Assembly: GCA_003116975.1 (NCBI GenBank)
Contig: BGKB01000030.1
Location: forward strand, 3,399-67,398
Reading direction: 5' to 3'
DNA length: 64,000 bases
Source: Aurantiochytrium sp. KH105
Lineage: Eukaryota > Sar > Bigyra > Thraustochytrida > Thraustochytriidae
Position 1 is the first letter of the stretch. Each line of letters begins with the position of its first letter. Made by a program: the position numbers and the translations under genes. Under the pieces are notes generated by a model. The model was not told where the DNA came from. It saw nothing but the letters and a program-made list of their open reading frames with translations, and searched no databases. Shown here piece by piece: positions 4,105-57,858 of this stretch.

Positions 4105-5239
4105 TGTCGTCTGCGCGGGGTTGACGTTTGCGCTTGCGCTTGCGCTTGCACTTGAAGTGGAGAAGAGCCTGCCGACTTTTCCTCTCTCCTCTTCTCTCCT
4201 CTCCTCTCCTCTCCTCTTCGCGCGGGTCCCTTGACAGCTCGGGCGTACGGCCGCGTTGAACGCGCTCGACGTCTTGGGTGACTGACAGTGAAGCCTGGCT
4301 GTCTCTGCCTCTGCCTCTTGCCTCTCTGCCCTTGACTTCTTGGCCTAGGCCTAGTAGTAGTACTAGGTCTTTTGCAGCAGTGGCAGAAGAAAATTTGCGG
4401 CGGATTATCTGTATTGGTAAAATAGTGAAGATCGGTCTTGAACCACAAGGTGCCTGGGGATAGGCCTAGTCTTGGCTGGCGAAGAGCCTCTTGGTCTCTT
4501 GTTTTTTTTCCTCGCCATTGGCCAACGTAGCATGTACAAGAAAACTCGCTCCAAGCACTGACGGTGGCACCCACCAATAAGATTGTCACGACCGCGCCAG
4601 AGGTGACTATCATACCAATCGTCGCTTGCTCAAGCTCCTTATCGCCCGCGAGCTGTTCTTCGCGGCACATGCGTACTGCCTTGGCTCTTTGCGCTTATAC
4701 TGTCCGTTTTCCCAAATGACCGAATCAATTGGTTCGACGTCACCTCATCGCGTCTGCTGCTGCTAGCAGGAGTCCAGTCCCATCGTTGGGCCTGCATCAA
4801 TAAATCTTGCGCACTTCTCCGGCCTCATCCGCTCGCGGCCCACCGACCGCTTTCCCTCGCTCGCTCGCCCCCTTCCCGGCACCTCTTCTTGGCCAATGTC
4901 CGTGCCTGCCTCAACCCGCTGAGCGTGCCACAAAAGCTGCGATTTTCACGGCAGATCTCGGCACCGCGAGAAGTCTCCTGGACCGGCACAAGTTGCTTGC
5001 CACTGGCATCTCACATGTCGACCAGCAGCAATCAGTCAATCGATCGATCGATCGATCGACCACGAGCAATCAATCAGTCAGCCAATCCTCCGTGCATTCG
5101 CATTCGCTCGCTCGCTCTGCGGAGACGAGCTGGCCGCAGAGCCCGGACTCGGGACGCAGCCCCACCAAGCCATCGGCCGGCAGCGGCGTGCGGGTCCGAG
5201 GTCGTTGGCCAGGAACTCGCTTGGCCCACTGGAAAGGGA
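4105..5239. promoter_or_regulatory. Divergent intergenic region between FMN reductase and TDH
   Basis: The two flanking genes diverge from this 1.1 kb stretch, so it should hold both promoters. It contains a CTCTCCT-rich run at about 4175-4218, a GGCCTAGGCCTAG palindrome at about 4342-4354, TAGGCCTAG at about 4461, and a (CGAT)n run at about 5038-5059 close to the TDH start. A 189-codon leftward ORF (4101-4670) with one hydrophobic segment overlaps it but is not supported as a gene. Confidence 0.55.
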
Positions 5240-6367
5240 ATGCGCAACATGCAGGCTCTGGGACGCGTCTCGGGAAGACGCTTCCTCAGCGGCGGCAGCG
5301 CGGGCGGCGGCAGCGGCGCGCCGCGCGAGCCGCAGACGGTGCAGCGCGCCTTTAGCTTTGGGTACCCCGGCGAGGCGTCGCGGGCGCGGCAGGCCGAGGC
5401 CACGACGCGGGTCCTCGTGACGGGCGCCTCGGGACAGATTGGCCAGGAGCTTGTGCCCTACCTTCAAGAGGAATACGGCGTCGATAACGTCATTGCGTCC
5501 GACATTCGCACGCCGCGTCGCAGCAAAGGCGGCAACGGCGGTAATGGCAGCCCAAGCGGGCCCTTTGTGTACTGCGATGTCATGCAAAAGGATGCCCTCT
5601 CGCGCATTGCGCTGGAGAACGGCATCGACATGATTGTGCACAACGCATCGATGTTGAGCGCCATTGGCGAAAAGAATCCGCAGCTAGCGCTGCGCATCAA
5701 TACGCGCGGCATGGAGAATGTCCTCGAGGTGGCCCGCGATAACGACTTGAGGGTTTTCGCGCCGAGCACAATCGCCGTCTTTGGCCCCTCGACGCCCAAG
5801 ACCGATACCCCGGATCTGACGGTGATGCGACCCACCACCATTTATGGCATTACGAAAATCTACATGGAGCTCTTGGGGTCGTACTACCACCAACGGTATG
5901 GCGTTGATTTTCGTTCGCTTCGCTACCCGGGCGTAATTTCCTCCGAGACGCTACCGGGCGGCGGCACCACGGACTATGCCGTAGAGATTTATTACAAGGC
6001 GCTAGAGGAACGCAGGTATACAAGTTTCTTGCGCAAGGACGCGGCCTTGCCCATGATGTATATGCCGGATTGCCTCAAGGCGACGATGATGCTTTTGCAG
6101 GCCCCCTCAGAGTCGCTCTCGGATCGCGTGTACAACATCACTTCGATGAGCTTTACGCCGGAGCAGCTCGCGGCGTCGATCCGCAAGTTCATTCCTGAGT
6201 TTGAAATTGACTATGCGCCGGACTTTCGTCAGGATATCGCGGATACCTGGCCGCAATCCATCGACGACCGCCTGGCGCGCAAGGACTGGCACTGGCGTCC
6301 GGACTTTGACATTGACGCCATGACCGAGGACATGCTCCACAAGCTCAACGCGAAGATTGCCAAGTGA
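5240..6367 (+). CDS. TDH: L-threonine 3-dehydrogenase, mitochondrial, short-chain type
   Basis: This NAD-dependent epimerase/dehydratase-fold protein has the full threonine dehydrogenase layout. The NAD-binding loop VTGASGQIG lies near residue 60, catalytic Y-x-x-x-K is in [12 protein letters not shown], and the C-terminal block [20 protein letters not shown] is characteristic of TDH. The enzyme oxidises L-threonine to 2-amino-3-ketobutyrate, which 2-amino-3-ketobutyrate CoA ligase splits to glycine and acetyl-CoA in mitochondria. I chose ATG 5240 (375 residues) over the longer open frame from 4889. It starts an Arg-rich, acid-free leader typical of mitochondrial presequences, and the upstream part is made of GATC repeats and looks like 5' UTR. 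ATG 5249 is an alternative. Confidence 0.9.
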
Positions 6368-7433
6368 GAATGTGTACCAGGTTTTCCCAATGTATGCCAC
6401 GACGCCAAAGGTTATGATAGTCAAGCGCGCTACGTCAAGGGGGCAAGTAGTTCAACGCAAGGTCGATGGGCCGAGCAAGCCGCAGCCGACGTTGTTGCGT
6501 CATACATCATTTTGCATTTCTCTGCTTGAATTTCGCGATCGACAGCCAGACAACCAGTGCAGACCAAGTATAGCATGAAAATAAAAACTCCAACCAAACC
6601 AAACCGAGTCAGTCAGTCTTTGTTGTGAACAACCCAAGGCGTGAGTGAGTGTGGCCTTCGGACTCTTGCGCGCAATAGATTCATCTTTTGGATCCTTGTT
6701 GGTTCCTTTCCGGTCTCTCTCTCCTCAAAAATGCTGCCATAATCACTGGCACTGCAAAACCATCTCTTGATGATCCGTATTCTGTGTCCTACGAGGGCGG
6801 ACAGAGCCAGCATGGCAAAGAAAGGGGAGGGCCTCTTGAGAGGCTGAAAAAATAAGAATTGAAACTGTTTCCCAGGAGAGCGTCTCTTCCAACGAAAAAT
6901 GGTGGAAGAGAACCTTGGTTCTCCGGGATCGTGGTGGACGCGAGGTCCCGTCGAGCATACACCCCCGCGGCACTCGAGCTGCCGTGGGCCAGACCCTGTG
7001 TTCTGTTCTCCTGGCTATTTTTGTGTGTTCTTTGCAACCGAGCAAACAGCCAACAGAGCGGCAAAGCGCAGCAGCGCGCGTTGTTGCCGTGTCGATACGC
7101 CTTGCCGTGCGCATCGTTGCTGGGGGCGTTGGACGCGAGGAGCCGCGGGAACGTGGGTTTGTGCGACGGACTGCCGAGCGGCTCGATCCCTGCGCGTGAC
7201 CAGTCGTTGCGCAGCAAGGGTTCACCTTGATCGGTCGGCGAGGGCGAGACCGAGGAGGACGCCGACGACGGTTTCCTCCTTGACACGGCGCAGCGCGTGC
7301 GCTTGTTCGGGCGCAGCGCGTGCATTAAGCTTGCGTCGTCACCTTGCTGTGCCGTGCCGTGGGGTGACGATACGTGGCGAGGCCATTCACGACGCGGTGG
7401 CGAGGCCATTCACGACTCGGTGGCTTGGCAAAG
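6368..7433. other. Intergenic between TDH and LIS1
   Basis: No supportable gene. A possible AATAAA poly(A) signal for TDH lies near 6580. The region just upstream of LIS1 contains a short direct repeat (GGCGAGGCCATTCACGAC-like) at about 7377-7415. Confidence 0.5.
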
Positions 7434-16815: not shown

Positions 16816-19128
16816 ATGGGCAACGAGGACAGCAAGCTGGTCGACGAAGGCGGCGGGCACTTCGATCCGCGCAAGAACTATGACAAGCGCACCTCGCGCA
16901 AGCACCATAGACAGGACTTTATGAACGCCATCCGCGCCTGGCGCACGCGTAAAGAAGCGGAACTAGGACCACACGAAACACTCCTCCCCAACACCAACAA
17001 CAGCAGCCACGGCGCCGCGAGCCCACCCGCTCCAGACAAAAATCGACCCTCGCGCCTCGTTCGCACCCTTTCCATTGACTCGCAACCACCACCACCACCC
17101 CCGGCGACATCGCCGCCCTCTTCCCCCATCGTCCTCAGAGACGAAGACCTCCGCATACTCGACTGGTTCGAGCTCGTATGCACCCGCGACGCGCCTCGAG
17201 GCGCCGCCCTGCTCGAGCATTTGCAAAAGATCCATCGTGCCGTCGCGCGTCAACATGCTGCCACGCCCAAAGCCACGCGAACGCAGCGCACAGATCCGCC
17301 CGCAACGTCTGCCAGCGACACCTCGCCCTCCGCGCGGACCAAACCCGCCGCACTCAGACCTCGCAAGCACTCAGACATTGTCACCCTCGCGGCATCGCGC
17401 TCGCTCTCGCCGCGTTCCGCCGCAAACGCGTCCAAAGCAAAGCGTCTTCAGGTCTTTGTGCGAAAACGACCCATGTTCGACAAAGAAATCGACGACGACT
17501 TTGACGTTGTCGACGCCACCGGCGCCCTCCAGCCCAATGGCGTTCTCGTCTTTGACACGCGCATGAAGGCCGACATGCGTGGCATGAAAATGACACCTCA
17601 TGTCTTCACCTTTGACCGCGTCTTTGACGAGTTCGCCTCCAATGCACAAGTCTACCGCGAAACCACCATTGGCCTCGTCCAGCACGCACTCGCTGGCAAG
17701 TCGGCCTCTGCATTCGTATTCGGCCAGACAGGATCCGGAAAAACATACACAATGTCTGCCGTCCTCTCACTCGCAGGACAAACCATCTTTCACGTCCTCT
17801 CGGCCGCAAGCCGCGCCACTGTCTCCCTCACAATGTATGAACTCTATGGCACGCAGTGCCGGGACCTGCTCGGGACGCAGGACCTGGCATCGCGTGGCGG
17901 TCACGACGACGAGCACGACGTACCCTTTGAAAACGACGAACCTGATCTCACCGCCTCAGAAGCCCCCTCCCCCGCGGCGATCCGCATGCTCGAAGATGGT
18001 GACGGCTCGCTCCGCTTTCCTGGCCTCACGACCCAGACCGTGCACTCGCAAGAAGAACTCATTGACAGCATCGAACGAGGCCAGCGAGCGCGCGCCACCT
18101 GCGAGACGGGCGTTCACGACCGCTCGTCGCGTTCGCATGCCTTTTGTCAAATATCCATTCACTACGATGACAGACAAGGCCAACTCATGCTCGTCGATCT
18201 CGCCGGCTCCGAGCGCAACAAGGACTCCCTCATGCACGATGCCAGGCTCGCAAAGGAAGGCGCCGAAATAAACAAGTCCCTCATGGCTCTCAAGGACTGC
18301 TTTCGCGCCCAAGCAGAGGGACGCGACTTTGTGCCTTTCCGTGCAAGCATGCTCACCCGCATCCTCAAACCTGCACTCACGGACCCGCTTGGCAAAACTT
18401 CCATCATTGCCACACTCAGTCCAAGTTCCGGGGACACAGAACACACGCTCAGCACCCTTTCCAATGTATCCGTCATGCTTGCCGACGTCACGCAAAAGAC
18501 CCACATCAAATTATCCACAGAAACGGTCGCTAGTCAGTCCCTCATAAAGGCCACAAAGGCCTACAACGAGGCCAAAGCAGCCGATCCCCGCAAGTGGTCC
18601 GCTACAAAACTTCGCGCTTGGTGGCTTTCCATTGCGCCCAAACACATTCCGCCTCCCGCAAACATTGATGGCGCCATGTTGTTCAAATGGTCCAAGAATC
18701 GATTCTACCAATACTGTAGACAGGCTTCGTCATCCTCCTCCTCATCGACCTCCTCTGCTGCATCGACGACTTCGACAGATGCAGTCCCATCGTCTGCTAC
18801 GAATGCCCACGGGCACCCTACGACGCCTCGACGAAAACTTTCGTCAGCTGCGTCGTCGCGTGCAACTGATGCAGTGTCGCCCTCTACGCGAGCCACAACG
18901 CCTCAGCGCTCGCCTGTTCGCCAGCGTCGCCCGTCGCATTCAACTTCTCCGTCGAGGACAGCAACTTCGCAGGGAGGAGTCTCCGCGCCAAGCCCTTCGG
19001 CTGCCTCACGACAAGATGCCCAAGCCGTTGCTGCTGCCGATGCCCTTTACAGCGATTTCCGCGACATGATTGCAACCTTGCGCAAACGACACGAGCTTCG
19101 CGTGCAGGCCAAGGTTGGCAAACGCTAA
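16816..19128 (+). CDS. Kinesin-13-like motor with putative N-myristoylation and SAM-like tail
   Basis: The 770-residue protein carries a kinesin motor at about residues 210-565. P-loop GQTGSGKTYT lies near 303, switch I RSSRSH near 437, switch II DLAGSERN near 463, and the helix-4 stretch EINKSLMALKDC follows. The loop-2 position holds MKAD near 250, close to the KVD tip of microtubule-depolymerising kinesin-13s. The motor is internal, as in that class, so depolymerisation at microtubule ends is the likely job. The start MGNEDS fits an N-myristoylation site (Gly2, Ser6). A Trp-rich block at about 593-635 (RAWWLSIAP...IDGAMLFKWS) looks like a SAM domain, followed by a Ser/Thr-rich tail. ATG 16816 has a good context (GACCATGG). 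Confidence 0.85.
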   Translation: MGNEDSKLVDEGGGHFDPRKNYDKRTSRKHHRQDFMNAIRAWRTRKEAELGPHETLLPNTNNSSHGAASPPAPDKNRPSRLVRTLSIDSQPPPPPPATSPPSSPIVLRDEDLRILDWFELVCTRDAPRGAALLEHLQKIHRAVARQHAATPKATRTQRTDPPATSASDTSPSARTKPAALRPRKHSDIVTLAASRSLSPRSAANASKAKRLQVFVRKRPMFDKEIDDDFDVVDATGALQPNGVLVFDTRMKADMRGMKMTPHVFTFDRVFDEFASNAQVYRETTIGLVQHALAGKSASAFVFGQTGSGKTYTMSAVLSLAGQTIFHVLSAASRATVSLTMYELYGTQCRDLLGTQDLASRGGHDDEHDVPFENDEPDLTASEAPSPAAIRMLEDGDGSLRFPGLTTQTVHSQEELIDSIERGQRARATCETGVHDRSSRSHAFCQISIHYDDRQGQLMLVDLAGSERNKDSLMHDARLAKEGAEINKSLMALKDCFRAQAEGRDFVPFRASMLTRILKPALTDPLGKTSIIATLSPSSGDTEHTLSTLSNVSVMLADVTQKTHIKLSTETVASQSLIKATKAYNEAKAADPRKWSATKLRAWWLSIAPKHIPPPANIDGAMLFKWSKNRFYQYCRQASSSSSSSTSSAASTTSTDAVPSSATNAHGHPTTPRRKLSSAASSRATDAVSPSTRATTPQRSPVRQRRPSHSTSPSRTATSQGGVSAPSPSAASRQDAQAVAAADALYSDFRDMIATLRKRHELRVQAKVGKR

Positions 19129-20286: not shown

Positions 20287-23200
20287 TTATGTATCTCGTG
20301 CATCGAGCTCGGGTGCCGCAATCATGACCGGCTCGTTCTGACTACGCCGCGGAAGGGAGCGACACCGTGTCAAATGCTGGATTTCTTCGATGGAACGCGG
20401 CGTATTGTTCAAGTCCATCCCTGTACGAACCCAGTGCTTCAAAAGATCCTGAAGACCCCAAATCGAAGAATTTGCGCCAATGCGAACAGGATCCGCCATA
20501 CGATTGCCAAAGAGATCAGTCCACGACAAACTAAAGCGACGCGAGTTTCGCTTCAGTCGCTCAAAAGACAGCTCTTTGGCCGCTTCAAGACGCATCTGGC
20601 GCTGCCATTCTGACCAATGCGACAGCCACGTCTCGAAAGCCTCGCCATGACCAGTAATTTGCAGCGCCTCGTCACGTGCCGCATTCAACTCCTCATCCGT
20701 CACAAGCACAAAGTGCGGAAACAGCTGGTCTGCGGCTGGCACAGGTAAATTGAGTTCACCTGCGAGGACCACCTCAAAGCGCAAAAAGATGACCACTTCA
20801 TCCACAGGACGCTGGAAAGAGTCCACCTTCATTTGAGCATGTCGCTGCACAACCTGCAGTCGCGCAATGCCCACCGCGAGCTCGCGCAGAGCCTCGCGAT
20901 TACCGCGTGCATTTACCGTTCGCACAATCACGGCCATTTGGTTCAATGCCTGAATCGGTTTGTCGCCACACGCATCGACACTGTCGCCCATGCGTGTGAG
21001 GAGCTCGTCGCGAGCATCCTCCTCATCCACGAGGAGCCTCAATACATCTACGACTCGCCTTGCCAGCGACTCACGCAGATCCTCGCGCTTGTACTCCTTG
21101 GCCACCGTCAGCTTGCTCAAAAAGAGGAGCACGCCCCGAAGGCTGATTTTTGGCACCACGTTCTCGACTTCGGAAGCCAGCTGCTGAGACTGGGCGAGAA
21201 TCTGAGCCTCCTCCTCCTCCTCCTCCTCCTTCCCATGCCCGTTGTCGGCGACTTCCTCGTTCTCTACATGGCCCGCATTTTCCTCGGCCATTTCCCTGTT
21301 CTCCTCGTCAGCGATTTCAGCAGCGAGAGCGGCGTCGGCGTCAATGTCGACCATCGTGGTGGCAGCTTCCTCTTCTTCTTCTTCTTCTTCTTCTTCTTCT
21401 TCTTCGACGACAACAGCTTCTTCGGGCTCAGGCTCGGCGAGATGCACATCCTCCGACACAGACTCTTCATCCTCGGAAGATTCGACACCGGCGCTCTGCA
21501 GCGCCGACGCTCCAGCCTTTGCAAACCAAAACATCACAGCAGTGCGTAAATTCGTAAAGTTACGCTCTGGCGACGCGTTCGGGCGCGTTACGAGCAAATT
21601 CACCGACGACGCCGCCTCTTGCCGCAGCTCGACGATGCGGTCTTCGAAGATGGACGTTCCCGTTAGATCAATCGTGTGCCGCCCTCCCGAAGGCGTCGGC
21701 CCCCACCGCAAAATTGAGGAAGGCAAGCTTGAGATGCCAATGCATTCCGTGAGAAACAGCGAGACACCAACATACATTTCTGCGGGGAGCACTTCAATGG
21801 AAGCACAGCCAAAGCAATCGAGGTCCCCGCCAACATAGAGTTCATCTGGGAGGGCAGATAACGACACGCACATTGCAAACGAGCAGTTCTGGTACACGGT
21901 CAGTTGCGATCCTGCAGTCCAAAGCGCCGAGCAACCGCTGCAGTCCAAATGTCCAGCCACCTCGAGCTCCTCGGGTAGCGCCGCGAGAGAGGTGGCGTTA
22001 ACGAGCGAGAGGTCGCTCTGCACGCGCAGCTTCGAGGGCAACGAAGCCAACAACACGCAGCCATTGGCGAGGATCGACTTGCCGACCGCGAGGTCGTCTG
22101 GAATCATGCGCAGTTTGCGACATCCTGTAATGTTCAAGAGACCTTCCACGCGCAAGCCAGAAGGCAGACTTTCCAGGTCGTTGTGGCAAAGAATGAGATC
22201 CCCCTTGATGCGCAAATTGTCCGGCAAACTCGTTACTTTGGTGTTCGAAAGATCGATCGAGTACACCGAGCTCCAGGGCAGCTGAATTCTCTCCAGCAAC
22301 GTGCAGCCCCGAAGCGAAATGTGGCCATCGATCGCCAAGTTCGCCGGAAGCTCGACAATCTTGAGATTTTCTGCCAAGAGGTCCCCGCGCACGCGACCGC
22401 GCGACGGAAGCCGGGAGATAGCTGTCCCGCGCAGGTCAAGGTCCCATCCGATATCGAGTTCCACGTCAAGCGTCTCCAGCGACGAGCACCCGTGCAGCGT
22501 AAAAACGCCCGCCGTTTTGACAACCCGCGGGAGTTGCGTGAGGGCAGTGCACCAACTCAGACTCAAGTCAAGGCCCGTTTGCACATTGTTTCCCAGGCGT
22601 TCCAATGCCGTGCATCGAGACAATGAGAGAGACCGCCCCACATATACATCGTCCAGGGCCTTGAGCGAAACTGCTTCGTGTAGATTCAGATCGCCCTCCA
22701 CTTGCAGATGAGAGCCCACGCGCTCGAGCTTTGGGCATCCGACCGCCGATACTGTGCCCAATGCATGGAAATTGTCCGGAAGAAGCGTCGCCAACTCAAC
22801 GCAGCGATCCGCGAGAATGTCCTTACCCACGCGCAAGTCTCCGTCGAGGCGCTCAAGCTTTGGACACTGCGAGACGCGCAAAGACTGCGTCACACGAAGC
22901 GGCGACGGCAGGGCCTCAATCACGCTCGAAACAATCTCAAGGTCTCCGTTCACTGTGCACAATGACGCCGGCAAATACTCGATATCGCACAAAATCTCGA
23001 CGTTGCCATCCACCTGAATGTCGTCTGGGAGCCGAGTCAATGGGCAGCTCGACACGCGCAGCAAGCCGTCCACGTGTAGACCGCTCGGCAAATCCGACAG
23101 CGAAGTCCCCACGATGTGCAGTGAGCTCACCTTCCAGTTCTCTGGAAGCTCGCGAAATTTGTAACAGTTTCGAATCAACACACCGCCATTTACCTTGACG

Positions 23201-24759
23201 TTGCTACCGAATCGCTCGAACGAGTGGCAATACTCAATGTTGAGCGAGCCCTTGAGGTCAATGTCATCAATATCCTTGATGCGCGAGCACGACTGCAAGA
23301 CGAGGGCCGACCCCACTTGGAGACCGCGGAGCTCGCGTCGCCCGTGGCATCGAACCAGCTCGACCTTTCCATCCACGATTGTGCCGCGCGGGAGACTGGC
23401 CGAACAGGACATTAACAGCAGGTGCGTTCCCACGTGCAAGGGGCCTTCGATCTCCCGCAACGACGACCCCAAGCGCAGCGTTCCATCCACACGCAAGGGC
23501 GGCAAGCACTCGAGCGAAAAGATCTCGAGATCCAGGCTCCCGCCCACGTGCAAGTGCCGCGGAAAGTCGTCGCCAAAGGTCCATTCATCGACCAACAGAG
23601 TGCCTCCCAGCGAGAAGCCTTCGCAAAGGTTAAAACCGTCACAGTCCGCGATGTCCAGGTCCCCATTGAGGACAACATCCTCGGGCAGCTCGCGCACCTT
23701 GGAATATCGCAGCGTGAGGCGGCCATCAACCTGGAGCCCGCCGGGAAGCGCTTCGAGCGACTCGCAGCGCTTGAGGTCTAGATTGCCGCGAATGTGCATG
23801 TTGTCGGGAAGCGCCGTCAACGACTTACAGGAAGCAAGAACGAGGTTCGTCAACACCTCCATTCGCAGTGGGAGGCGCTCCAACGCCTCGCAGCGTTTTA
23901 AAACGAGCGAGCCGCTTACGTGCAGCTCCTCGCAGATCTCGCGCAAACGTACACAACGCTCAGCAGCAAGATCCCCGTCAACATGGAGCCTTGCAGGCAA
24001 CTTGCGAAGTCTGCTCGAGAAAGCAATGTTCAATTTGCCGTGCACGCAGAGATCCTCGGGAAGCTTTGTCAGCTTGGATGAGCTCAAATTAACATTGGCA
24101 AAGAGCTCAAGCGGGCCGTCCGGTAGACTTGTCAGCGCTTCTAGCGACAGGTTTAGGTCTTCGCCGCGAGACCACTTTCTCGCGGCTGCGGCAATTGAGC
24201 GTCGCGCTTTCCAGTCATCCACGCCGTAATCTTCCAGGTCCCATTCGCGAACGCTTTTGAATTTGGCAAAGGTGTCGAGCTGATGCTTGTTCACCAAGTC
24301 TGAAATGAACGGCAAGGCCTCGGAGATCAGCCGTAACTGTTCGATAATATAGACTTTCTCATCAAACTCTTCGGGTTCACGTGTGCACCGGACCAGATCT
24401 GCAGCAAGCCATGAGCGCCGTTCTTGTTCTTCGAGGTTTACGCCCTCTTCCTCATTCGCCCAGGCTTCGATATTTGCCTCCATTTGCGCGCGCGCATCTT
24501 CTTGCCGCGCTGCCTCCTCCTCTAATTCCTTGGCGGCGACGGCGGCGGCAGCGTCTGCGTCGTCAGTCTGATTTCCTTGTAGTTCTTCTTCTTCTTCTTC
24601 CTCTACATCTTCGAGCGGCAAGAGCTCGAGAACTTGGCTCTCTTCCCCGTCGTCGCCCTCGTCCCCGTCCTCGTCTTCGGCGCGACGGCTGTTGCTGCTA
24701 CCTACGCTGCGCGCGAGGCTCTCTCGTACGTGCGCCACGCGTTGCGACAGTCGCTTCAT
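20287..24759 (-). CDS. SAM-like/LRR/NEL-domain E3 ubiquitin ligase (IpaH/SspH-type) in a eukaryote
   Basis: The 1490-residue protein has four parts: an acidic N-terminus; a SAM-like segment at about residues 150-195 (WDLEDYGVDDWKARRSI); about 40 leucine-rich repeats of 20-22 residues (about 200-1080), each near L-P-x-x-L-x-V-x-G-x-L-x-L-x-x-C; and an acidic linker with a long Glu run near 1120. The C-terminus matches the NEL domain of bacterial IpaH/SspH/SlrP ligases: CGD with Cys1264 and Asp1266, then VDEVVIFLRFEVVLAGEL, a VTDEEL block and FETWLSHWSEW, in the NEL order. NEL enzymes load ubiquitin on the Cys of CxD and modify targets chosen by their LRR. The ORF also opens from a GTG at 24942, but the first ATG is at 24759. 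There are no introns. A DPVR...LLKHWV tail recalls part of a U-box. No signal peptide or TM is seen, so a cytosolic role is likely. Target unknown. Confidence 0.85.
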   Translation of the reverse strand: MKRLSQRVAHVRESLARSVGSSNSRRAEDEDGDEGDDGEESQVLELLPLEDVEEEEEEELQGNQTDDADAAAAVAAKELEEEAARQEDARAQMEANIEAWANEEEGVNLEEQERRSWLAADLVRCTREPEEFDEKVYIIEQLRLISEALPFISDLVNKHQLDTFAKFKSVREWDLEDYGVDDWKARRSIAAAARKWSRGEDLNLSLEALTSLPDGPLELFANVNLSSSKLTKLPEDLCVHGKLNIAFSSRLRKLPARLHVDGDLAAERCVRLREICEELHVSGSLVLKRCEALERLPLRMEVLTNLVLASCKSLTALPDNMHIRGNLDLKRCESLEALPGGLQVDGRLTLRYSKVRELPEDVVLNGDLDIADCDGFNLCEGFSLGGTLLVDEWTFGDDFPRHLHVGGSLDLEIFSLECLPPLRVDGTLRLGSSLREIEGPLHVGTHLLLMSCSASLPRGTIVDGKVELVRCHGRRELRGLQVGSALVLQSCSRIKDIDDIDLKGSLNIEYCHSFERFGSNVKVNGGVLIRNCYKFRELPENWKVSSLHIVGTSLSDLPSGLHVDGLLRVSSCPLTRLPDDIQVDGNVEILCDIEYLPASLCTVNGDLEIVSSVIEALPSPLRVTQSLRVSQCPKLERLDGDLRVGKDILADRCVELATLLPDNFHALGTVSAVGCPKLERVGSHLQVEGDLNLHEAVSLKALDDVYVGRSLSLSRCTALERLGNNVQTGLDLSLSWCTALTQLPRVVKTAGVFTLHGCSSLETLDVELDIGWDLDLRGTAISRLPSRGRVRGDLLAENLKIVELPANLAIDGHISLRGCTLLERIQLPWSSVYSIDLSNTKVTSLPDNLRIKGDLILCHNDLESLPSGLRVEGLLNITGCRKLRMIPDDLAVGKSILANGCVLLASLPSKLRVQSDLSLVNATSLAALPEELEVAGHLDCSGCSALWTAGSQLTVYQNCSFAMCVSLSALPDELYVGGDLDCFGCASIEVLPAEMYVGVSLFLTECIGISSLPSSILRWGPTPSGGRHTIDLTGTSIFEDRIVELRQEAASSVNLLVTRPNASPERNFTNLRTAVMFWFAKAGASALQSAGVESSEDEESVSEDVHLAEPEPEEAVVVEEEEEEEEEEEEEAATTMVDIDADAALAAEIADEENREMAEENAGHVENEEVADNGHGKEEEEEEEAQILAQSQQLASEVENVVPKISLRGVLLFLSKLTVAKEYKREDLRESLARRVVDVLRLLVDEEDARDELLTRMGDSVDACGDKPIQALNQMAVIVRTVNARGNREALRELAVGIARLQVVQRHAQMKVDSFQRPVDEVVIFLRFEVVLAGELNLPVPAADQLFPHFVLVTDEELNAARDEALQITGHGEAFETWLSHWSEWQRQMRLEAAKELSFERLKRNSRRFSLSWTDLFGNRMADPVRIGANSSIWGLQDLLKHWVRTGMDLNNTPRSIEEIQHLTRCRSLPRRSQNEPVMIAAPELDARDT

Positions 24760-25874: not shown

Positions 25875-25930
<56 letters not shown>

Positions 25931-29257: not shown

Positions 29258-30007
29258 CTATTCGCTCTTGGCTGCCGCCTCGGGTTCGACGAACTTCTCC
29301 CACGCGCGCTCCTGATGGCCTTGCTTCATGGCCATGTAGCGCGCCGCCATGAAGAGATAATCGCTGAGCCGGTTGACAAACTTGCCAACGTTGGCGTCCA
29401 CGTGCCCTTCCCGAACGAGTGGCACAATATGACGCTCCGCGCGGCGCGCAAGCGTACGTGCAACGTGCAAGTGCGCGGCGCACTTGCCGCCCGAGGGAAG
29501 GATGAATGTCTTCAAAGGCGGCAACTCGGCGTCCATGGCGTCAATGGCCTTTTCGAGCGTCTCAACGTGAACTACGTTGAAGCTGGACCGCTTTAGCTTG
29601 GCAGCCGACGAGCTCTCCTGCGGCGTCGCCACGCTCGCCCCAACGTCGAACATGCGCGACATGATGTTGCCAAGCTGCTCGGCGACGTCGGCATTCTTTT
29701 CGTCCACAAACTCGCAAGCTAGCCCAATAAAAGCGTTGCACTCGTCCACGGCGCCCAGGGCCTGGAACACGGCATCGTCCTTGCTGCGCCGCTCGCCGTT
29801 GAAGAGCTGCGAGGTGCCCTTGTCGCCCGTCTTCGTGTACACCTTCATGCTCAGCGCCCTCGCGCCAACTTTATGCTCTAGAGTCTCCCACTTGGGGCTC
29901 GCGCCCACTGCCGCCGCCCGCGCTGCTCCTTGCCAAGCCCTCGCCGGTCTGTCGCAGGCCGCACAGAGGCTTCCCCGCGCGAGTCTGCGGGCGAGTCTTG
30001 CAGCCAT
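29258..30007 (-). CDS. MMAB: Cob(I)alamin adenosyltransferase, PduO/MMAB type, mitochondrial
   Basis: The 249-residue protein has an Arg/Ala-rich presequence of about 50 residues without acidic residues until near the end, then the PduO-type domain. KVYTKTGDKGTSQLF near residue 54 is the ATP-binding N-terminal motif. It is followed by RRSKDD, ALGAVDECNAFIG, RRAERHIV and NRLSDYLF, all diagnostic for this family. The enzyme transfers adenosyl from ATP to cob(I)alamin, supplying coenzyme B12 to methylmalonyl-CoA mutase in mitochondria. Its presence implies use of imported B12, for example for propionate breakdown. ATG 30007 gives the presequence; an internal Met at the KVYTK motif would remove it. 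Confidence 0.92.
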   Translation of the reverse strand: MAARLARRLARGSLCAACDRPARAWQGAARAAAVGASPKWETLEHKVGARALSMKVYTKTGDKGTSQLFNGERRSKDDAVFQALGAVDECNAFIGLACEFVDEKNADVAEQLGNIMSRMFDVGASVATPQESSSAAKLKRSSFNVVHVETLEKAIDAMDAELPPLKTFILPSGGKCAAHLHVARTLARRAERHIVPLVREGHVDANVGKFVNRLSDYLFMAARYMAMKQGHQERAWEKFVEPEAAAKSE

Positions 30008-44299: not shown

Positions 44300-47200
44300 T
44301 CAAAATTCTTTGGCGTGCAGTCGCAGCACACCATCCCAATCGTGATTGGAAGGTGAAATTGACGTGCCATGTTTGACCAAGGCTCCATCAATCCGCGCTT
44401 GCAAGAGTTGCGCGGCGCGGTCAGTGGTACATTTGGCTGTGAGCCGATGCAGTGCTTCATCCGCTTCGGCAAACTGGCCCCGCTGAAATGCATCGAGCGC
44501 ACGCTCGTAAGCTTCGATGTCGCTTAGCTTGCCCTTGCGCACATCGCTCACCGGACCGTACTCGTACGTGACGGCATCTTCGCATTCCTCCTCGTCATTG
44601 CTGCTCGAGGCGTTCCATGTTCGCGAGGATCGCGGCATCCGAAAGGACCCGCGAATTTTGGCCGCAGAAACCAATGGCAAACGGGCGGACATGAACTTTG
44701 TCTCGCGCATCCTTTGCTTGCGTGTGCTGGATCCAAAAATGCGATCGCTCATCGACGGTGCTCTTGAAGCTTGAGCCTCCGACACGCCAGGCGCGTCGGC
44801 TGTGCTGCGACCCAGAAGTTTGCGTTTCATGGACACAAGCTCATACACCGTCACAGTCTTGGCCTTGCCTTTGACTGCCACACAGTCGAGCTTGCGCGTC
44901 ACAAACACGTTGCCAGGGAGCGCAGAAAAGGTGCTGTGCGAGATGATGATGCCCGTTCCAAAAAGCTTGTTCACCCCCTCGAGTCGAGACGCGAGATTTA
45001 CCGCGTCTCCCAAGGATCCCCATTTGTAACGCGAAACGCTTCCAATGTTGCCCGTCAGCACGTCGCCAGTATGCACCCCAATCCTGATCTTTAACTTTCC
45101 ACATCCAGCGGCCCCGAGCATTTCCGCAAAGTATTCGTTGAGAAACCGCATGGACTCTTGCTGGGCCAAGGCCGAGGCGCACGCTTTGGCTTCGTGGTCT
45201 TCGACAGGATCAGGCGTATTCCAGAATGCCAACACACCATCTCCCAATATTTCGCTCACCACACCACCGTACGCTTCCACAACGGCGGTCATGACGGTCA
45301 GGTAGCGGACCAAGAAGAGGAGAAGATCGCGCTCGCTGAGACGCTCACTAATGGATGTGAAGCCCGCAATGTCCGAAAACAAAATGGTCACATTGCGACG
45401 GCGCACGTGAAGGCGACGGCCCTTGCCCTCTGAGTTTGTGATCACCGCACGCACCACTGCAGAAGGCACAAACTTGGCCATCACTTCGATGGTGCTACAC
45501 AAGTCATTGAACGAGGACTGCATTTGCGAAATCTCGTGAACACGTGAGAGCTCCGTCTTCTTTACACGGCTGAACTTGAGCGTCTCAAGGTCGCGCATGA
45601 AGCCGCTCAGCTGGATGATGGAGGCTCCAAAGCGCCACGCGAGGCACGCCGAAAGGATGCAAACAAGGATGGTAATGGCCAGAATGATCCCCGTGACCAA
45701 GGCGGCCGCCTGGGCCCAGCGTTCTCGCTGCTGTTCGTCGAGCGAACGCACAATGCCCTTGTACTCGCCCTTGAGGTACTCGAGGTTTTGCAGGTAGAGA
45801 AGGTGTGGGACAACGGCAACAGCAAGAAGCTCTACCTGATTGCCCATGTCGACCAAATCATAAGGGTCTGCACTGGGGCCCTGCACCGGGACCATGGAGA
45901 CAAAGAAGCACTGGCTCGAGTTCGCACCAGTCTGGGTCAGGTCGCATGGCTCGAGCGTATCGAGATTGACGAGTGCCGCACGTCGCGTGCCAGGCGTGCC
46001 AAAGGCCCCGCCCAACCAGGCGTCGCGCACGTAGGTAGCCGACCGCGCCACAGTGCCGGTGCCACCCTCGACATCGACCGCAAGGGTGGAGTTGAGCATC
46101 GCGTGGTCGACCTGTGCCGGCCTGCACGCGTTCGAAGTTGCCAACAAAGTGCCGACGCGGTCCACATCGTCAAGTTCCGAGTCAATCGAGTTGGCGCCAT
46201 TAAAGATCAGGTACGAGAGACCAGCGTCCTCATCGGTTCCGTTGGCGAGACTTGAGCTGCTCGCGGAACTGCCATGTGGACTGGAATTTGCGTCATGACT
46301 GCCGTCAGCTGCAGAAAAGTTGAAGCTGAGGTGCTCGTGCAGAAAGCAGCTCAGGCCCTGAAGATCAATCTGGGCACCGATGAGAGCATTGAAACACGTT
46401 CGATTGGAATTGAGACAAAGGTCGTACGGACGGAGAAAGGTCATGAGCATGGAAGGGTCGCCCTGAAAGTCGTTGAGCGCCCACCAGAAAAGCACAGGGT
46501 TATTATCGTTGTCGGCCATGAGACGCAGCTCTTTGAGACGGAGCGGGTGTTGGTCATAGTCGAAGTTGTCATTGACGCAATGGGAATGCGCTTGATGGGG
46601 TCGCGTAAAGTCAGGCACCCCTGCTGTCATTGGATATGCGGTGCAGTTTGGCGACGGCGTGCACAGCTCGATGCAAGAGAAATTAAGGAATCTGTCCTCG
46701 ACAGCAACAATAACTTCGGAGGTTTCTTCAAAGCCGATAAAGACGCTTCGGACGCTTCGCGATTGTTCCGTGGCGAGCGGTATCGACAGCAGAATGCCAG
46801 CGCTGGCATTGTAGGCCGCCTGCACGGCTTCGAAGGTGGCTGTGGATTGGTCGAGAGCGCCGACGTGGCCCGAGAAACCTGGCTGGAAATGGCGAATGGC
46901 GGCCAGGGAGCCTGCGACCTCGCCGGTGATACCCACGGCCTGATCGAGGTAGGAGCGCTGGATGCGTTCGCTTAGCACGTCGAGCGCGCTGATGGTGTCC
47001 TGGCGCGCAAAATCCTCAAGGGTGATGCGCGAGGTCTCCATGAGATCCGCCACGTTTTCTGTGCACTGCGTCTGGACCTCGTTGGTGACATCGACGGAAA
47101 GCGAGAGGCTGACAATTGCAATGAGCATGCACGCGAGCGCGACGATTAGCATGGACATGAGCACCAGCGCCGCGCGGAAATGGATGGTTGGCGCGCACCG

Positions 47201-48139
47201 TGGCAGCTCGGGCGGCCCACTGAGGAGACTCCGAGGGGAAGCCGGGCCGACGTCTTGCCCAGTGCCGGCCGCGCCCGTTTTCTCTCGATTTGATGCCTCG
47301 GCCGCGCCGTGCGTGTCGTCCGCGAACGAGGTCGACACGGTGACGCCTTCGTGTCCGGGGACCATGAAGGCATTTTCGTCGCGCACGAGGGTTTCTTGTA
47401 CGTAGCCCATGAGTGATTTGGAGCGCATAAGGAGCTGTAGAGCGTTGGCAGAGTCTTTCGGAGGGTATGTTGGTGTGTGGGGCGGCGCGGGTGCGCTCAT
47501 GGGTGGAAGCATGGAGTCCAAGGGAGGAAACTTGGAGTCCAAGGGAGGAAACTTGGAGTCCAAGGGTGGAAGCTTGGAGTCCAAGGGTGGAAGCTTGGAG
47601 TCCAAGGGTGGAAGCTTGGACTCCAAGGGTGGAAGCATGGATCCAAGGGTGTCGCTTTCGTGTTCGGGTTCTTCTTTGTCATTGTCCATATTTTCGACTT
47701 TGTGGGCGTTGGAGGAGCATGTTTCGTCGGCGTCAATTTCGTTGTCAGTGTCGAAATCGAGGCCAAAAATGTCGTCGCGCATATTTTTCAAACCGGAGGA
47801 GACAGAGGTTCTTCTCGTTGTTTCTGAATCCGGGTCGCTTACGTTGCCGTCTCGTACTACGATCGTCTGCGTTGCGGTTGCATAGTCGTCATATGGTGAG
47901 ACGGAGAGACTGTCATCATCGTCCAGACCGCCCGCAGAAGTACGACTGCTGCTCGCAGAGGCATCAGGGCTCGCCGGGAGAATGTGGCGCACTGCCACAA
48001 GTGGAGGAGGAGGAGGAGGAGGAGGTGGCGGTAGTATTGATGTTGCTCCGAGCGGCGACGATGTGGATTGGGTTCCAAATTCGGGCTCGGAATTGTTCAT
48101 TTTGAGATGGTCTTGTTGGTGTTCATCTCCGACTCCTAT

Positions 48140-48197
<58 letters not shown>

Positions 48198-48448
48198 ACT
48201 CCTGCTCCTGCTCCTTGATGAGTGTCATTCCACGTTCGCGCGCTTCTTTCCGGCTTGCAGCAATTGTCCAAGGGCGCTGTGCGCGCTCGTTTGCGCCCTG
48301 TCCTGCTGGCATTGCTTGCGCTGCTGGAGCTGCTTGCGCTGCTAGAGCTGCTGGTGCTGCTAGAGCTGCTGGCTTCCTCGTCTACGAGGGTCCCGTCGAC
48401 CATGCGCCGGAGCCGCGTTGCCGCAGCATCGCCGTCGTCCTCGTCCAT
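44300..48448 (-). CDS. Receptor-type class III nucleotidyl cyclase
   Basis: This 1382-residue protein has a long low-complexity cytosolic N-terminus, including a Gly-Ala run (about residues 78-104), prolines and PPLDSK repeats near 270-315. TM1 lies near 420-445, an outer domain of about 450 residues with many Cys and N-glycosylation sites follows, and TM2 lies near 915-940. A HAMP-like linker ending KFVPSAVVRAV leads to a class III catalytic domain from about 1020. Metal-binding Asp residues sit in LFSDIAGFT and LGDGVLAFW, and GSLGDAVNLASRLEG follows. It makes cAMP or cGMP on receiving an outer signal. At the base-specificity positions I read Glu (EILGD) where adenylyl cyclases have Lys, and Gly at the Asp/Cys position, so the product is uncertain. 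Confidence 0.88.
47505..47650. repeat. 21-base tandem repeat in the cyclase gene (PPLDSKx units)
   Basis: About seven copies of a 21-base unit near GGAGTCCAAGGGTGGAAGCT on the + strand, coding on the minus strand for a seven-residue unit P-P-L-D-S-K/M-L/F. Copies differ by a few bases. Confidence 0.85.
48142..48213. repeat. (CTCCTG)n hexanucleotide repeat encoding Gly-Ala in the cyclase
   Basis: About 12 hexamers, reading GAGAGA on the minus strand in frame with the cyclase N-terminus. Confidence 0.85.
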
Positions 48449-54969: not shown

Positions 54970-57858
54970 ATGCGCGTGACCGCTGGCGCGGTGCTCGCCG
55001 TCGGGGCGCTACTTGCCCATTGGCAGCGCGCAGAAAGCGTCGTCGCGCGCCTCGACTCATGCAGCGTCTCGGAAGATGAGCTCGTCATGCCAGAGCGGGC
55101 GTTCTGTGATGACGTTTCCTTCGGAGGAGACGATGAGGACACCGCCATCTCCGCCACGCTTCTTCTCGACCCGTGCTGCGGCGACCTGTCTTCGGACGTC
55201 GAGCAGTGCCGCTCCATTGACTTCACGGAAGCCTACTGTCCAGCCGACAGCGACTGCCTCGTCGAGGAAACCCAGCTCGATCTCACCCTCTCCTTCATCA
55301 CAGACGACTCTGGAAGCACATGCTGCTCGCAGTGCCAGTGCTGGGGTGATCCGTACTGCGTAGACTTCAACGGCGATCGCGATGAGTGGGTCATCTGCGA
55401 TTCGCGCAACAGGGAAACCTGTAACCAGCAACGCAGTCGCTGCAACAAGCGAACATTTGATCACAACGGCGAGGCATGCGAGTTTGTGCGCACCAGCGAC
55501 CGGCCCAACGCCGAAGGCCAAGTCTGGCGCTCGTGGGAGCTCGATGGCAGCCCCTGTCAGTCGGTCTCACTCTGGACCGGCGACACCTCAAAGCCAGCCC
55601 CCGAGATGCTCATGTACTCCCGCGATGGCTTCAGCATCAGCCTCGTGCTCGGCGAGCGCGGCATCATCACGAAAACGAAAGTTGAGACGGAGTCTGGCGC
55701 CACCTACGAGATCGAGGCTGACGCGTGCCTCTCGAACCCCGCCCCCTCGGCGTGGACAACCTCCGAACCGGCGCTGCCCTCTGCTTGGACCGTCGCCGCT
55801 CTTTCGGAGAATGAAGTCAAGTGGAGCATCTCGTCCGAAGATGAGCGCGTCTTTGCCACCATCAGTTGCCTTGCACTCGCTGAGCGGGCTCGTCAAGATG
55901 TCACCATCATCGATGCCCAGGACACGCAAGGTGCCAGTGGGCTTGATGGCTACTGCCCTCTGGGAACGATTCAGGAGCGCGCCGCGGCCGAGGCCAAGGG
56001 CCAAAAGAACACGCTCTCCATCTCTCACAGCTCCATATGTATGCGCATGGAAGTTGGCGAGTGTGGCACGGCCTGCAAGTCCTTTGTGACGCAAGATTGC
56101 CAGGTCGACTACAACCTTGCGCGCAATGTTGAATTTTGGTGTTCCACCACCGACTTCAGCCTGCTCGACAACCCGCTCACACCCCAGGAGTGCATCGACG
56201 CCATCTTTCCAAGCGTTGTCGGCCCAGTCGAAACGGATGAACCCTGCGACGCTGCTGCGTGGGCGGACATTATCTGTCAAATTGACGAGGCCCTTCTCAG
56301 CTCGAGCACCCAGTACGATAAGTGCATGTCTACAATTTCGGAATTCGGCTTTTCGCAATACTATCAGGAACGTCTCGATCTCGACCTCGCGCCCAAGCTG
56401 CCACTGGCCAAGGCCGACACCTCTTCCTGCGCAAACTCTGCAAGCGAATACACCACTGCCTCCTCGGAGTGCGCCCGCGGCGTTTCCGTTCAGTACAACG
56501 ACGAAACATCTGGGGAGTGGGTCGAGGCATTCTTTATTCCCGAAACCTTGCCTCCTTGCAATGACATTCTCACAATCACGGGAACAGAGTACCCTGAGCT
56601 TTTGCAGAACCGTATTCGACTCTCTCAGTGCGATGCGCTCACTGCCAGGTGCCAGGTCGAGACCCTTTGCCAACCCACTCTTGGCTTCCAGGCCGAGTTT
56701 AACTTTGTCGCAACAGAAGCGGCTTGCCCAACGCCTGAGCCCACACCCGAACCAACAACACCTGAGCCAACCCCGGAACCAACAACACCAGAGCCGACGC
56801 CAGAACCGACACGAGAACCTACAACACCAGAGCCAACGCCAGAGCCAACAACACCTGAGCCAACGCCGGAACCAACAACACCAGAGCCGACGCCAGAACC
56901 AACACGAGAACCTACAACACCAGAGCCAACGCCAGAGCCAACAACACCAGAGCCAACGCCGGAACCAACAACACCAGAGCCGACGCCAGAGCCGACAACA
57001 CGAGAGCCGACACCAGCACCAATTGCAGTATGCCCTGACAAAAAGCTCGACATTATATGGGTTGTTGACAACAGTGGCTCCATCGATCAAGGCGCGCAGG
57101 GATCAACTGAACTCAGAACCCTGCTCACTCGTGTCGTCGATGCGTACACATTGGATCAGGATGCTACCCGCTTCGCTGCCTTGCGGTATGCGGAAGGAAT
57201 CTTGGACGTAAGCGGAACGATTTCCTCATCTGCTCCCTTTGGAAGTGGTGCGATTACGTCACGCGCGGGTCATCCATTCTTTTTCAACGCAGATGGCTCG
57301 ACAAATGTTAATGGTGCCTTCCTTACATTCGCATCATCTATGGATGCTGAGACATACACGGATACCCCGCAGGCTTTGCAGGGTGCGAACACCATTCTCA
57401 GCACCTCCGAGGCGAACGGAGGTCCGCGCACCGGAAGCGATGTGACCAGAATTGTTATTCTACTTACTGACGGTAATCCGAATCAGTATTGGGGCACGGC
57501 CTGCGGCGACATTCCGGAGAAGTCATCCAAGGATCGGAGAAACGTCCGTGATGCAGTCGATGTGGCTTGTACGGAGTATCAGGCGGCCCAAGTTGTCAAC
57601 CAAGGAGGCGCTTACCTCATTAATGTGCGAATCGGCAATGCAATCGACAACAATTTTCTGCGATACTGCCTCACGCAGAATACGCCGCAGCCAGGCCAGC
57701 CCGAGTCAATTCAACAGATTCAGTCATCCTTTAACCAGCTCCAGCAAACTGTAGACGAGATTGTTGCTGCGAGTTGCGTCGACGGCTTCGCTGTTCCTCC
57801 TGGCGTCGTCTATCCCGACTCCGCAGCTGCTTGCAGAGACAGCATTTCCTTCTCCTAA
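54970..57858 (+). CDS. Secreted Cys-rich protein with PTPEPT repeat and VWA domain
   Basis: The 962-residue protein begins with a signal peptide (MRVTAGAVLAVGALLAHW). A Cys-rich region (about residues 30-570) includes CCSQCQCWGDPYCVDFNG near 118, which recalls the start of a von Willebrand type D domain. A Pro-Thr-Glu repeat follows (about 588-683), then a VWA domain from about 693. Its MIDAS motif D-N-S-G-S starts near residue 700, with LLTDGNPNQ near 833. No transmembrane segment or GPI signal is seen, so secretion or a wall/matrix role is likely. VWA domains bind protein ligands through a metal ion, and the Pro-rich repeat is a probable stiff, O-glycosylated spacer. Exact role unknown. Confidence 0.85.
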   Translation: MRVTAGAVLAVGALLAHWQRAESVVARLDSCSVSEDELVMPERAFCDDVSFGGDDEDTAISATLLLDPCCGDLSSDVEQCRSIDFTEAYCPADSDCLVEETQLDLTLSFITDDSGSTCCSQCQCWGDPYCVDFNGDRDEWVICDSRNRETCNQQRSRCNKRTFDHNGEACEFVRTSDRPNAEGQVWRSWELDGSPCQSVSLWTGDTSKPAPEMLMYSRDGFSISLVLGERGIITKTKVETESGATYEIEADACLSNPAPSAWTTSEPALPSAWTVAALSENEVKWSISSEDERVFATISCLALAERARQDVTIIDAQDTQGASGLDGYCPLGTIQERAAAEAKGQKNTLSISHSSICMRMEVGECGTACKSFVTQDCQVDYNLARNVEFWCSTTDFSLLDNPLTPQECIDAIFPSVVGPVETDEPCDAAAWADIICQIDEALLSSSTQYDKCMSTISEFGFSQYYQERLDLDLAPKLPLAKADTSSCANSASEYTTASSECARGVSVQYNDETSGEWVEAFFIPETLPPCNDILTITGTEYPELLQNRIRLSQCDALTARCQVETLCQPTLGFQAEFNFVATEAACPTPEPTPEPTTPEPTPEPTTPEPTPEPTREPTTPEPTPEPTTPEPTPEPTTPEPTPEPTREPTTPEPTPEPTTPEPTPEPTTPEPTPEPTTREPTPAPIAVCPDKKLDIIWVVDNSGSIDQGAQGSTELRTLLTRVVDAYTLDQDATRFAALRYAEGILDVSGTISSSAPFGSGAITSRAGHPFFFNADGSTNVNGAFLTFASSMDAETYTDTPQALQGANTILSTSEANGGPRTGSDVTRIVILLTDGNPNQYWGTACGDIPEKSSKDRRNVRDAVDVACTEYQAAQVVNQGGAYLINVRIGNAIDNNFLRYCLTQNTPQPGQPESIQQIQSSFNQLQQTVDEIVAASCVDGFAVPPGVVYPDSAAACRDSISFS
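56733..57015. repeat. 27-base minisatellite encoding TPEPTPEPT units
   Basis: About ten imperfect copies of a 27-base unit (ACACCAGAGCCAACGCCAGA plus seven bases) in frame in the VWA protein gene. Some copies have CGAGAA, giving Arg in the unit. Confidence 0.88.

Follow-up and report, generated by a model that had tools for sequence, protein, structure and literature searches.

The gene at positions 20287 to 24759 (minus strand) of the analysed window, a stretch of 64,000 nucleotides from contig BGKB01000030.1 of Aurantiochytrium sp. KH105, very probably encodes a native nuclear E3 ubiquitin ligase of the cysteine type that belongs to the NEL superfamily. It is one of the 16 loci of this kind carried by a diploid protist resembling thraustochytrids. 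Domain homology, catalytic residues, constraint between alleles, synteny, a multigene family and the combinations of domains found among its members have been demonstrated. The mechanistic E3 classes of eukaryotes include RING, U-box, HECT and RBR. In passages of one review, NEL is called exclusive to bacteria (PMC9320238), and a part of a 2014 review proceeds from the lack of eukaryotic counterparts to the idea that eukaryotes might have genes for related NEL enzymes (PMC4133400). Among the matches listed in a search of the open full-text literature, no description of NEL ligases in a thraustochytrid or other protist was found; subscription papers, preprints and protein databases lay outside this search, and the databases may contain entries for such proteins. 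The 16 constrained NEL loci of this protist provide a concrete object for the idea of eukaryotic NEL enzymes and render testable the origin of the class, the role of NEL in a cell with NEL genes of its own and the possible existence of a further mechanistic E3 class in eukaryotes.

NEL domain and catalytic residues

The initial annotation had described an open reading frame (ORF) of 1490 residues as an LRR–NEL ligase, i.e. with leucine-rich repeats (LRRs) preceding the NEL domain, and this ORF is present and unbroken on the minus strand. The Pfam NEL profile (PF14496), suggested there as a check, matched residues 1210–1395 with E 8.4e-21 (74.8 bits, cut-off 24), and NEL is the only Pfam domain above cut-off in the protein. 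A profile composed entirely of bacterial rows, which had first been picked out by the protist-family profile, assigned 108.5 bits to the NEL segment, and 1000 shuffled versions of that segment reached at most 16.2 bits. Searched against the PDB with phmmer, the protein retrieved IpaH chains via residues 1243–1396 (E 1.0e-4 to 5.3e-4); its two best matches, to an LRR protein with E 1.8e-11 and to SlrP with E 1.9e-6, both lie on the repeats. The profile of the 16 protist NELs retrieved 12 solved chains (IpaH proteins, SspH1, SspH2 and SlrP) with E 6.3e-26 to 7e-23, indirect evidence for a predicted all-helical NEL fold.

The CGD motif read from the sequence was located in RMGDSVDACGDKPIQALNQM, with Cys1264 and Asp1266 in place, and the accompanying blocks VDEVVIFLRFEVVLAGEL, VTDEEL and FETWLSHWSEW all occur in the ORF translation. 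The C-x-D signature is kept in 32 of 32 NELs of the genome; in the 38 bacterial rows, the Cys is retained in 37 and the Asp in all. Asp1320 was equated with Asp397 of IpaH9.8 by a hand count on the alignment of the family with the solved chains, and this column holds D in 15 of the 16 loci (one representative per locus), E in the remaining one and D in 34 of the 38 bacterial rows. The role of Asp397 and of the other active-site residues is taken from section 3.3 of PMC9320238. At the start of the domain, model positions 1 to 18–28 are unmatched in all 32 protist matches. Of 31 bacterial matches, 21 start at model position 1 and the rest, two end-part fragments aside, at 5–15, indicating a consistent protist difference. 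The best Pfam NEL score is that of paralogue L009(+), and the window copy is among the lowest-scoring of the 32.

The following features were assigned (positions in the window):

20287..24759, minus strand: LRR–NEL gene, single open frame of 1490 amino acids plus stop, ATG at 24759
20575..21132, minus strand: NEL domain, residues 1210–1395, Pfam PF14496 E 8.4e-21, same place in the genome scan (C30:23973-24530)
20968..20970, minus strand: Cys1264, predicted ubiquitin-accepting Cys of C-x-D, kept in 32/32 genome NELs
20962..20964, minus strand: Asp1266 of C-x-D, kept in 32/32 genome NELs
20800..20802, minus strand: Asp1320, equivalent of IpaH9.8 Asp397, located in the alignment by counting 60 residues on from the catalytic Cys
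21715..24147, minus strand: leucine-rich repeats, residues ~205–1015, period 20–21, ~39 repeats, from periodicity and motif scan
21160..21654, minus strand: acidic linker joining the repeats to NEL, residues 1036–1200, 32% D+E, runs of 13 Glu and 7 Glu
24154..24384, minus strand: possible SAM-like segment (not established), residues 126–202, SAM_TNK E 0.063, below cut-off
20290..20574, minus strand: C-terminal tail, residues 1396–1490, family motif DPV...W.L.DLL.HWV.TG.D
16816..19128, plus strand: kinesin gene, synteny marker, Pfam Kinesin E 1.3e-65, 97% copy at C87:282911-285011

The earlier count of about 40 LRRs is fair, the figure of ~39 being the length of the repeat region (residues ~205–1015) divided by the period. 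The hydrophobic period of the repeats is 21, and its harmonics appear at 42 and 63; 33 repeat starts were recognised in a strict motif scan, and twelve units are exactly 21 residues long (L.V.G.L.(I/L)..C..L..LP..). Among the Pfam LRR models, the sole match to the window protein was LRR_EndoS with 25.2 bits, just under the cut-off of 27.9. The SAM-like N-terminus that had also been proposed finds a parallel in one paralogue with a clear SAM domain (E 5e-17) and is not established for the window protein itself: SAM_TNK reached 13.8 bits against a cut-off of 25 (E 0.063), and both a PDB search of the N-terminal stretch and a single-sequence comparison with the SAM domain of the paralogue were negative. 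A CTT array (21366–21405) lies within the stretch encoding the acidic linker. On contig C87, the frame that contains the allelic NEL is likewise open (1708 codons).

Gene family and allelic constraint

The genome (76.0 Mb, more exactly 76.03 Mb, in 367 contigs) is apparently diploid and contains 32 NEL matches, all over the Pfam cut-off and none with internal stops; none of 14 control genomes matched the profile. The 32 NELs form exactly 16 pairs: identity is 97–100% within a pair and does not exceed 67% across loci, the pattern expected when a diploid assembly includes both haplotypes.

Between the two alleles of the window gene, 10 silent and 0 replacement changes were counted in the 212 codons of NEL, and the sum over all 16 pairs amounts to 171.5 silent and 43.5 replacement changes. 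For the nine of 16 pairs with longer frames of both alleles, the summed ratio of replacement to silent change (pN/pS) is 0.06 in NEL versus 0.155 in the 420 residues upstream. The catalytic part is constrained and the recognition part is freer.

Upstream regions of 11 of the 15 other loci were scanned with Pfam, one of these frames being incomplete and four loci lying outside the scan. SPRY was found upstream of NEL in two paralogues (E 8.9e-16 and 1.7e-12) and SAM_2 in one (E 5e-17). The SPRY + LRR + NEL fusions locate at L012:1437-6467(-) and L025:2813-8209(+); this combination occurred in neither of two bacterial NEL proteins scanned with Pfam. Armadillo repeats in L015 were rejected (E 0.0021, 18.5 bits, cut-off 20.6).

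The LRR part of the window protein matches 52 places in the genome, 48 in NEL frames and four in one NEL-free frame of contig C26 (counted by eye), which indicates that repeats and NEL mostly occur together; the same repeat type was detected in 14 of the 16 NEL loci, the window locus included. At C26:59229-60365, a 718-codon open frame has the same LRR type without a NEL match, representing either an LRR-only relative or a loss of NEL. Two NEL genes, among them the one with the best-scoring NEL of the genome, are arranged head to head at L009:2181-4769(-) and L009:5308-8301(+), and on the other haplotype at L010:916-3786(-) and 4514-7156(+), with 538 (L009) and 727 (L010) bases between the stop-to-stop frames.

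The tail motif DPV...W.L.DLL.HWV.TG.D follows NEL in most paralogues and is possibly an unnamed module. No convincing Pfam family was found for the tails, the best match being a phage repressor with E 0.03 in one of 16. By eye the pattern DPV...W...TG resembles a U-box; this candidate was rejected, as 0 of 16 tails matched U-box in Pfam, the PRP19 U-box in the PDB gave only E 1.7 and 1.9, and none of 24 U-box matches in the genome (E up to 10) falls within a NEL gene, as checked by eye.

Relationship to bacterial NELs and origin

A scan for motifs of the protist family, which covered 84,980 prokaryote species with one genome apiece and is prone to miss distant NELs because it depends on these motifs, detected 14 loci, all in Pseudomonas and with 28–31% identity in the best segments, so that recent transfer from a known bacterium is not supported. 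In Pseudomonadota, NEL was present in 9 of 398 genomes, one of which had been chosen as centre for having NEL (8 of 397 without it). The corresponding motif scan of viral contigs produced six pattern stretches, none of which was confirmed. An unannotated Escherichia phage record of 1.9 kb (OR845636.1) contains at 852–1349 a stretch that weakly matches (30%, E 5e-7) one of the protist NELs.

The tree comprised 41 rows, 16 from the protist and 25 bacterial ones kept from 38 after dropping rows at least 80% identical; three fragments and three loci below threshold had been left out beforehand. A branch with support 100/98 and a stem of 1.52 changes per column separates the protist NELs from the bacterial rows. 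Removal of four long rows preserved the split (100/99), with a warning of long branches meeting, and the bacterial group nearest to the protist NELs shifts with the rows used. Identity between protist and bacterial NELs over the domain averages 22% and reaches at most 27.8%; mean identity is 0.32 within the bacterial and 0.45 within the protist set. As the tree is unrooted and its bacterial rows stem from one phylum, it gives neither direction nor date of a transfer. Residues 419–791 of one paralogue, spanning LRR and NEL, align co-linearly with residues 155–526 of a compact NEL protein from bacteria. Of four other proteins tried, that of the window included, L018 gave one alignment running slightly upstream of NEL, and the remaining three matched with NEL alone or with LRR and NEL as separate pieces. 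The choice originally offered, between an old domesticated transfer and a wider eukaryotic distribution of NEL, is borne out in that the data favour old presence and diversification in this lineage.

The reverse direction, with NEL arising in eukaryotes and bacteria capturing it later as effectors, is rather unlikely, even though a number of observations are in its favour: the protist set occupies one side of a long-stemmed branch and is not nested in any sampled bacterial group, few of the Pseudomonadota genomes have NEL, and one protist paralogue shares its co-linear order of LRR and NEL with compact bacterial proteins. Bacteria are also not known to possess ubiquitin, on which NEL acts. The non-nesting, however, says nothing on origin in an unrooted tree, the bacterial NELs are the more diverse set, and the parts of the two reviews considered here describe bacterial NELs only (PMC9320238, PMC4133400). 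A similarly doubtful standing is given to the scenario in which NEL would be a eukaryotic invention, i.e. an adaptor-diversified E3 class (LRR, SPRY+LRR, SAM+LRR) of protists from which bacteria captured an LRR–NEL gene that gave rise to the injected effectors.

Predicted mode of action

Ligase activity, substrate binding by the LRRs, autoinhibition and a role in the cell are predicted from sequence as follows. The long LRR solenoid would bind the substrate, and NEL would take ubiquitin from a charged ubiquitin-conjugating enzyme (E2) onto Cys1264, with Asp1266 and Asp1320 presumably shaping the active site, from where it could be passed to a lysine of the LRR-bound protein. Until substrate binds, the LRRs probably keep NEL inactive, as in the bacterial enzymes; the acidic linker of more than 100 residues is a looser tether than the ~10-residue hinge of IpaH-type proteins, and the contact or geometry of autoinhibition may therefore differ. 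One catalytic module is joined to varied upstream modules (LRR alone, SPRY+LRR, SAM+LRR), and the 16 loci and several such modules give the family the look of an E3 set diversified through its adaptors. This mixing of modules looks like that in the F-box or RING adaptor families of other eukaryotes. The targets may be proteins of the cell itself or of intruders.

Several observations weigh against the interpretation of the window gene as a native, active ligase of a diversified family. Of 66 columns conserved in the family, 13 are changed in the window copy. Among these changes are W>Q, six residues past the catalytic Cys, and, at later positions, C>V together with H>Q, and the use of E2 by this copy may differ owing to them. 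Outside NEL, the window pair has 12.5 silent and 14.5 replacement changes (by subtraction, of 378 codons compared), indicating that linker and tail are far less constrained, and in two of the nine pairs (L012/L011 and L009-/L010+) NEL is not the more constrained part. Codon use correlates with that of five neighbouring genes at 0.46–0.66 for NEL, a short segment, and at 0.71–0.83 for the whole gene. A clear extra domain besides LRR and NEL was found in three of the 11 scanned paralogue frames, and the repeat type of the window was not detected in two of the 16 loci.

The departures from consensus, with the Trp near the active site among them, are also what would be expected if the window copy were a pseudoenzyme, in which the NEL fold is kept and an LRR scaffold binds E2 or substrate without transferring ubiquitin. 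Such a loss of function is improbable in view of the retained Cys, Asp and second Asp and the lack of any replacement against 10 silent changes between the NEL alleles. Departures are larger still in L027 (24 of 70) and L018 (15 of 68), both of which keep C-x-D, and the window copy stands above most members in this respect. Export of the proteins to act on other cells as effectors or toxins is considered more improbable again: it would agree with the injection of the bacterial relatives and with the dermonecrotic-toxin N-domain of Pseudomonas relatives (both of the two scanned, of 14 found), and is opposed by the acidic N-terminus of the window protein and the SAM and SPRY domains of paralogues, which look intracellular, a weak point since no export signal was searched for. 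Bacterial contamination or a chimeric contig, suggested by the otherwise bacterial descriptions of NEL, is practically dismissed by 16 loci each on two haplotypes, the kinesin gene beside NEL on both haplotypes of the window locus, the SPRY and SAM fusions, an identity of at most 28% to any sampled bacterial NEL over the domain and the 14 loci (28–31% in best segments) that the motif scan detected among 84,980 prokaryote species.

Genomic context

The NEL family is old, diversified and native to this genome. The flanking genes are eukaryotic in kind, as had been stated at the outset: kinesin (E 1.3e-65), guanylate cyclase (E 5.9e-21) and PP2C (E 1.8e-24, all Pfam). The kinesin copy at C87:282911-285011 (97% identical) adjoins the allelic NEL at C87:280794, synteny on both haplotypes having been examined for the window locus alone among the 16; with the same kinesin neighbour on both haplotypes and 16 loci genome-wide, the contig is neither bacterial nor chimeric. 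Base composition and third-position guanine + cytosine (GC) content of the gene resemble those of five neighbouring genes. The GC content of the window ranges from 0.52 to 0.68 in 2-kb steps, and the NEL gene constitutes one frame; for the diploid draft of Aurantiochytrium sp. KH105, the part of the report considered gives a GC content of 54.4% and a mean of 4.7 exons per gene model (PMC5924542).

Polyunsaturated fatty acid (PUFA) synthase and carotene synthase signatures point to a thraustochytrid, and thus stramenopile, host. A PfaA-type PUFA synthase was matched on both haplotypes with 930 bits over positions 6–1035 of 2582, below the cut-off of 1010.1, and the remainder was found on other contigs; the family was also matched in 11 of the 14 control genomes, in none over the cut-off. 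Two 1318-codon frames with a phytoene/squalene synthase domain are as expected of the fused crtIBY (fusion presumed from length and domain), which the same report, in the part considered, records with 1268 amino acids for five thraustochytrids (PMC5924542). The search of the genome for a light-harvesting protein detected none.

Rfam did not yield any match in the window. Further elements in the window comprise a cobalamin adenosyltransferase gene (29258–30007, Pfam E 8.5e-59), a perfect GCA repeat of 18 units upstream of the NEL gene (25875–25929) with single-residue runs in several overlapping frames, a 21-bp repeat with seven copies at 93% (47501–47651) inside the guanylate cyclase gene (44300–48448), and a repeat array with a period of 27–93 bp (56728–57022) inside a VWA-domain gene (54970–57858).

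Comparison with known systems

The closest known counterparts are the IpaH/SspH/SlrP/NopM effectors (PF14496), with which the protist proteins share the order of LRR and NEL, the C-x-D cysteine, the second Asp, the VDE..V.L block and the W..W block. In contrast to these type III secreted products of bacterial genes, the protist genes are nuclear, form 16 allelic pairs in a diploid eukaryotic genome and possess SPRY and SAM fusions and a family-specific tail. The window copy further differs by ~39 LRRs and its long acidic linker, compared with a hinge of ~10 amino acids between LRR and NEL that is given for IpaH-type proteins in the consulted part of PMC9320238. Three proteins were scanned against the NCBIfam equivalog models, and scores remained below the cut-offs for the window protein (SlrP, 33.8 bits versus 1113) and for paralogue L009 (SlrP, 54.7 versus 1113; IpaH, 37.1 versus 550; SspH2, 25.4 versus 1243).

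An earlier claim of a eukaryotic NEL-like protein concerns the green-algal KfNLR genes, with Kf presumably denoting Klebsormidium. These genes are said to contain NEL; in the portion of the article considered, the claim relies on an LRR-type ODAL superfamily similarity to NEL, with neither a catalytic domain nor a cysteine shown (PMC7145615).

The LRR effectors XopL and XopAE resemble the protist proteins by a weak LRR match (XopAE, E 1.2e-5 for the window protein; XopL, E 2.2e-4 for L009), both far below the NCBIfam cut-offs. Unlike the protist proteins they are devoid of NEL, the ligase of XopL being described in part of a review as an unrelated, cysteine-free XL-box (PMC4133400).

The large Pseudomonas NEL proteins with ToxA_N (L038 and L039) share with the protist proteins a NEL on the C-terminal side, a frame of ~1600 codons and LRRs. 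They differ in their dermonecrotic-toxin N-domain and in matching other Pfam LRR models, and their identity amounts to 28–31% in the best NEL segments.

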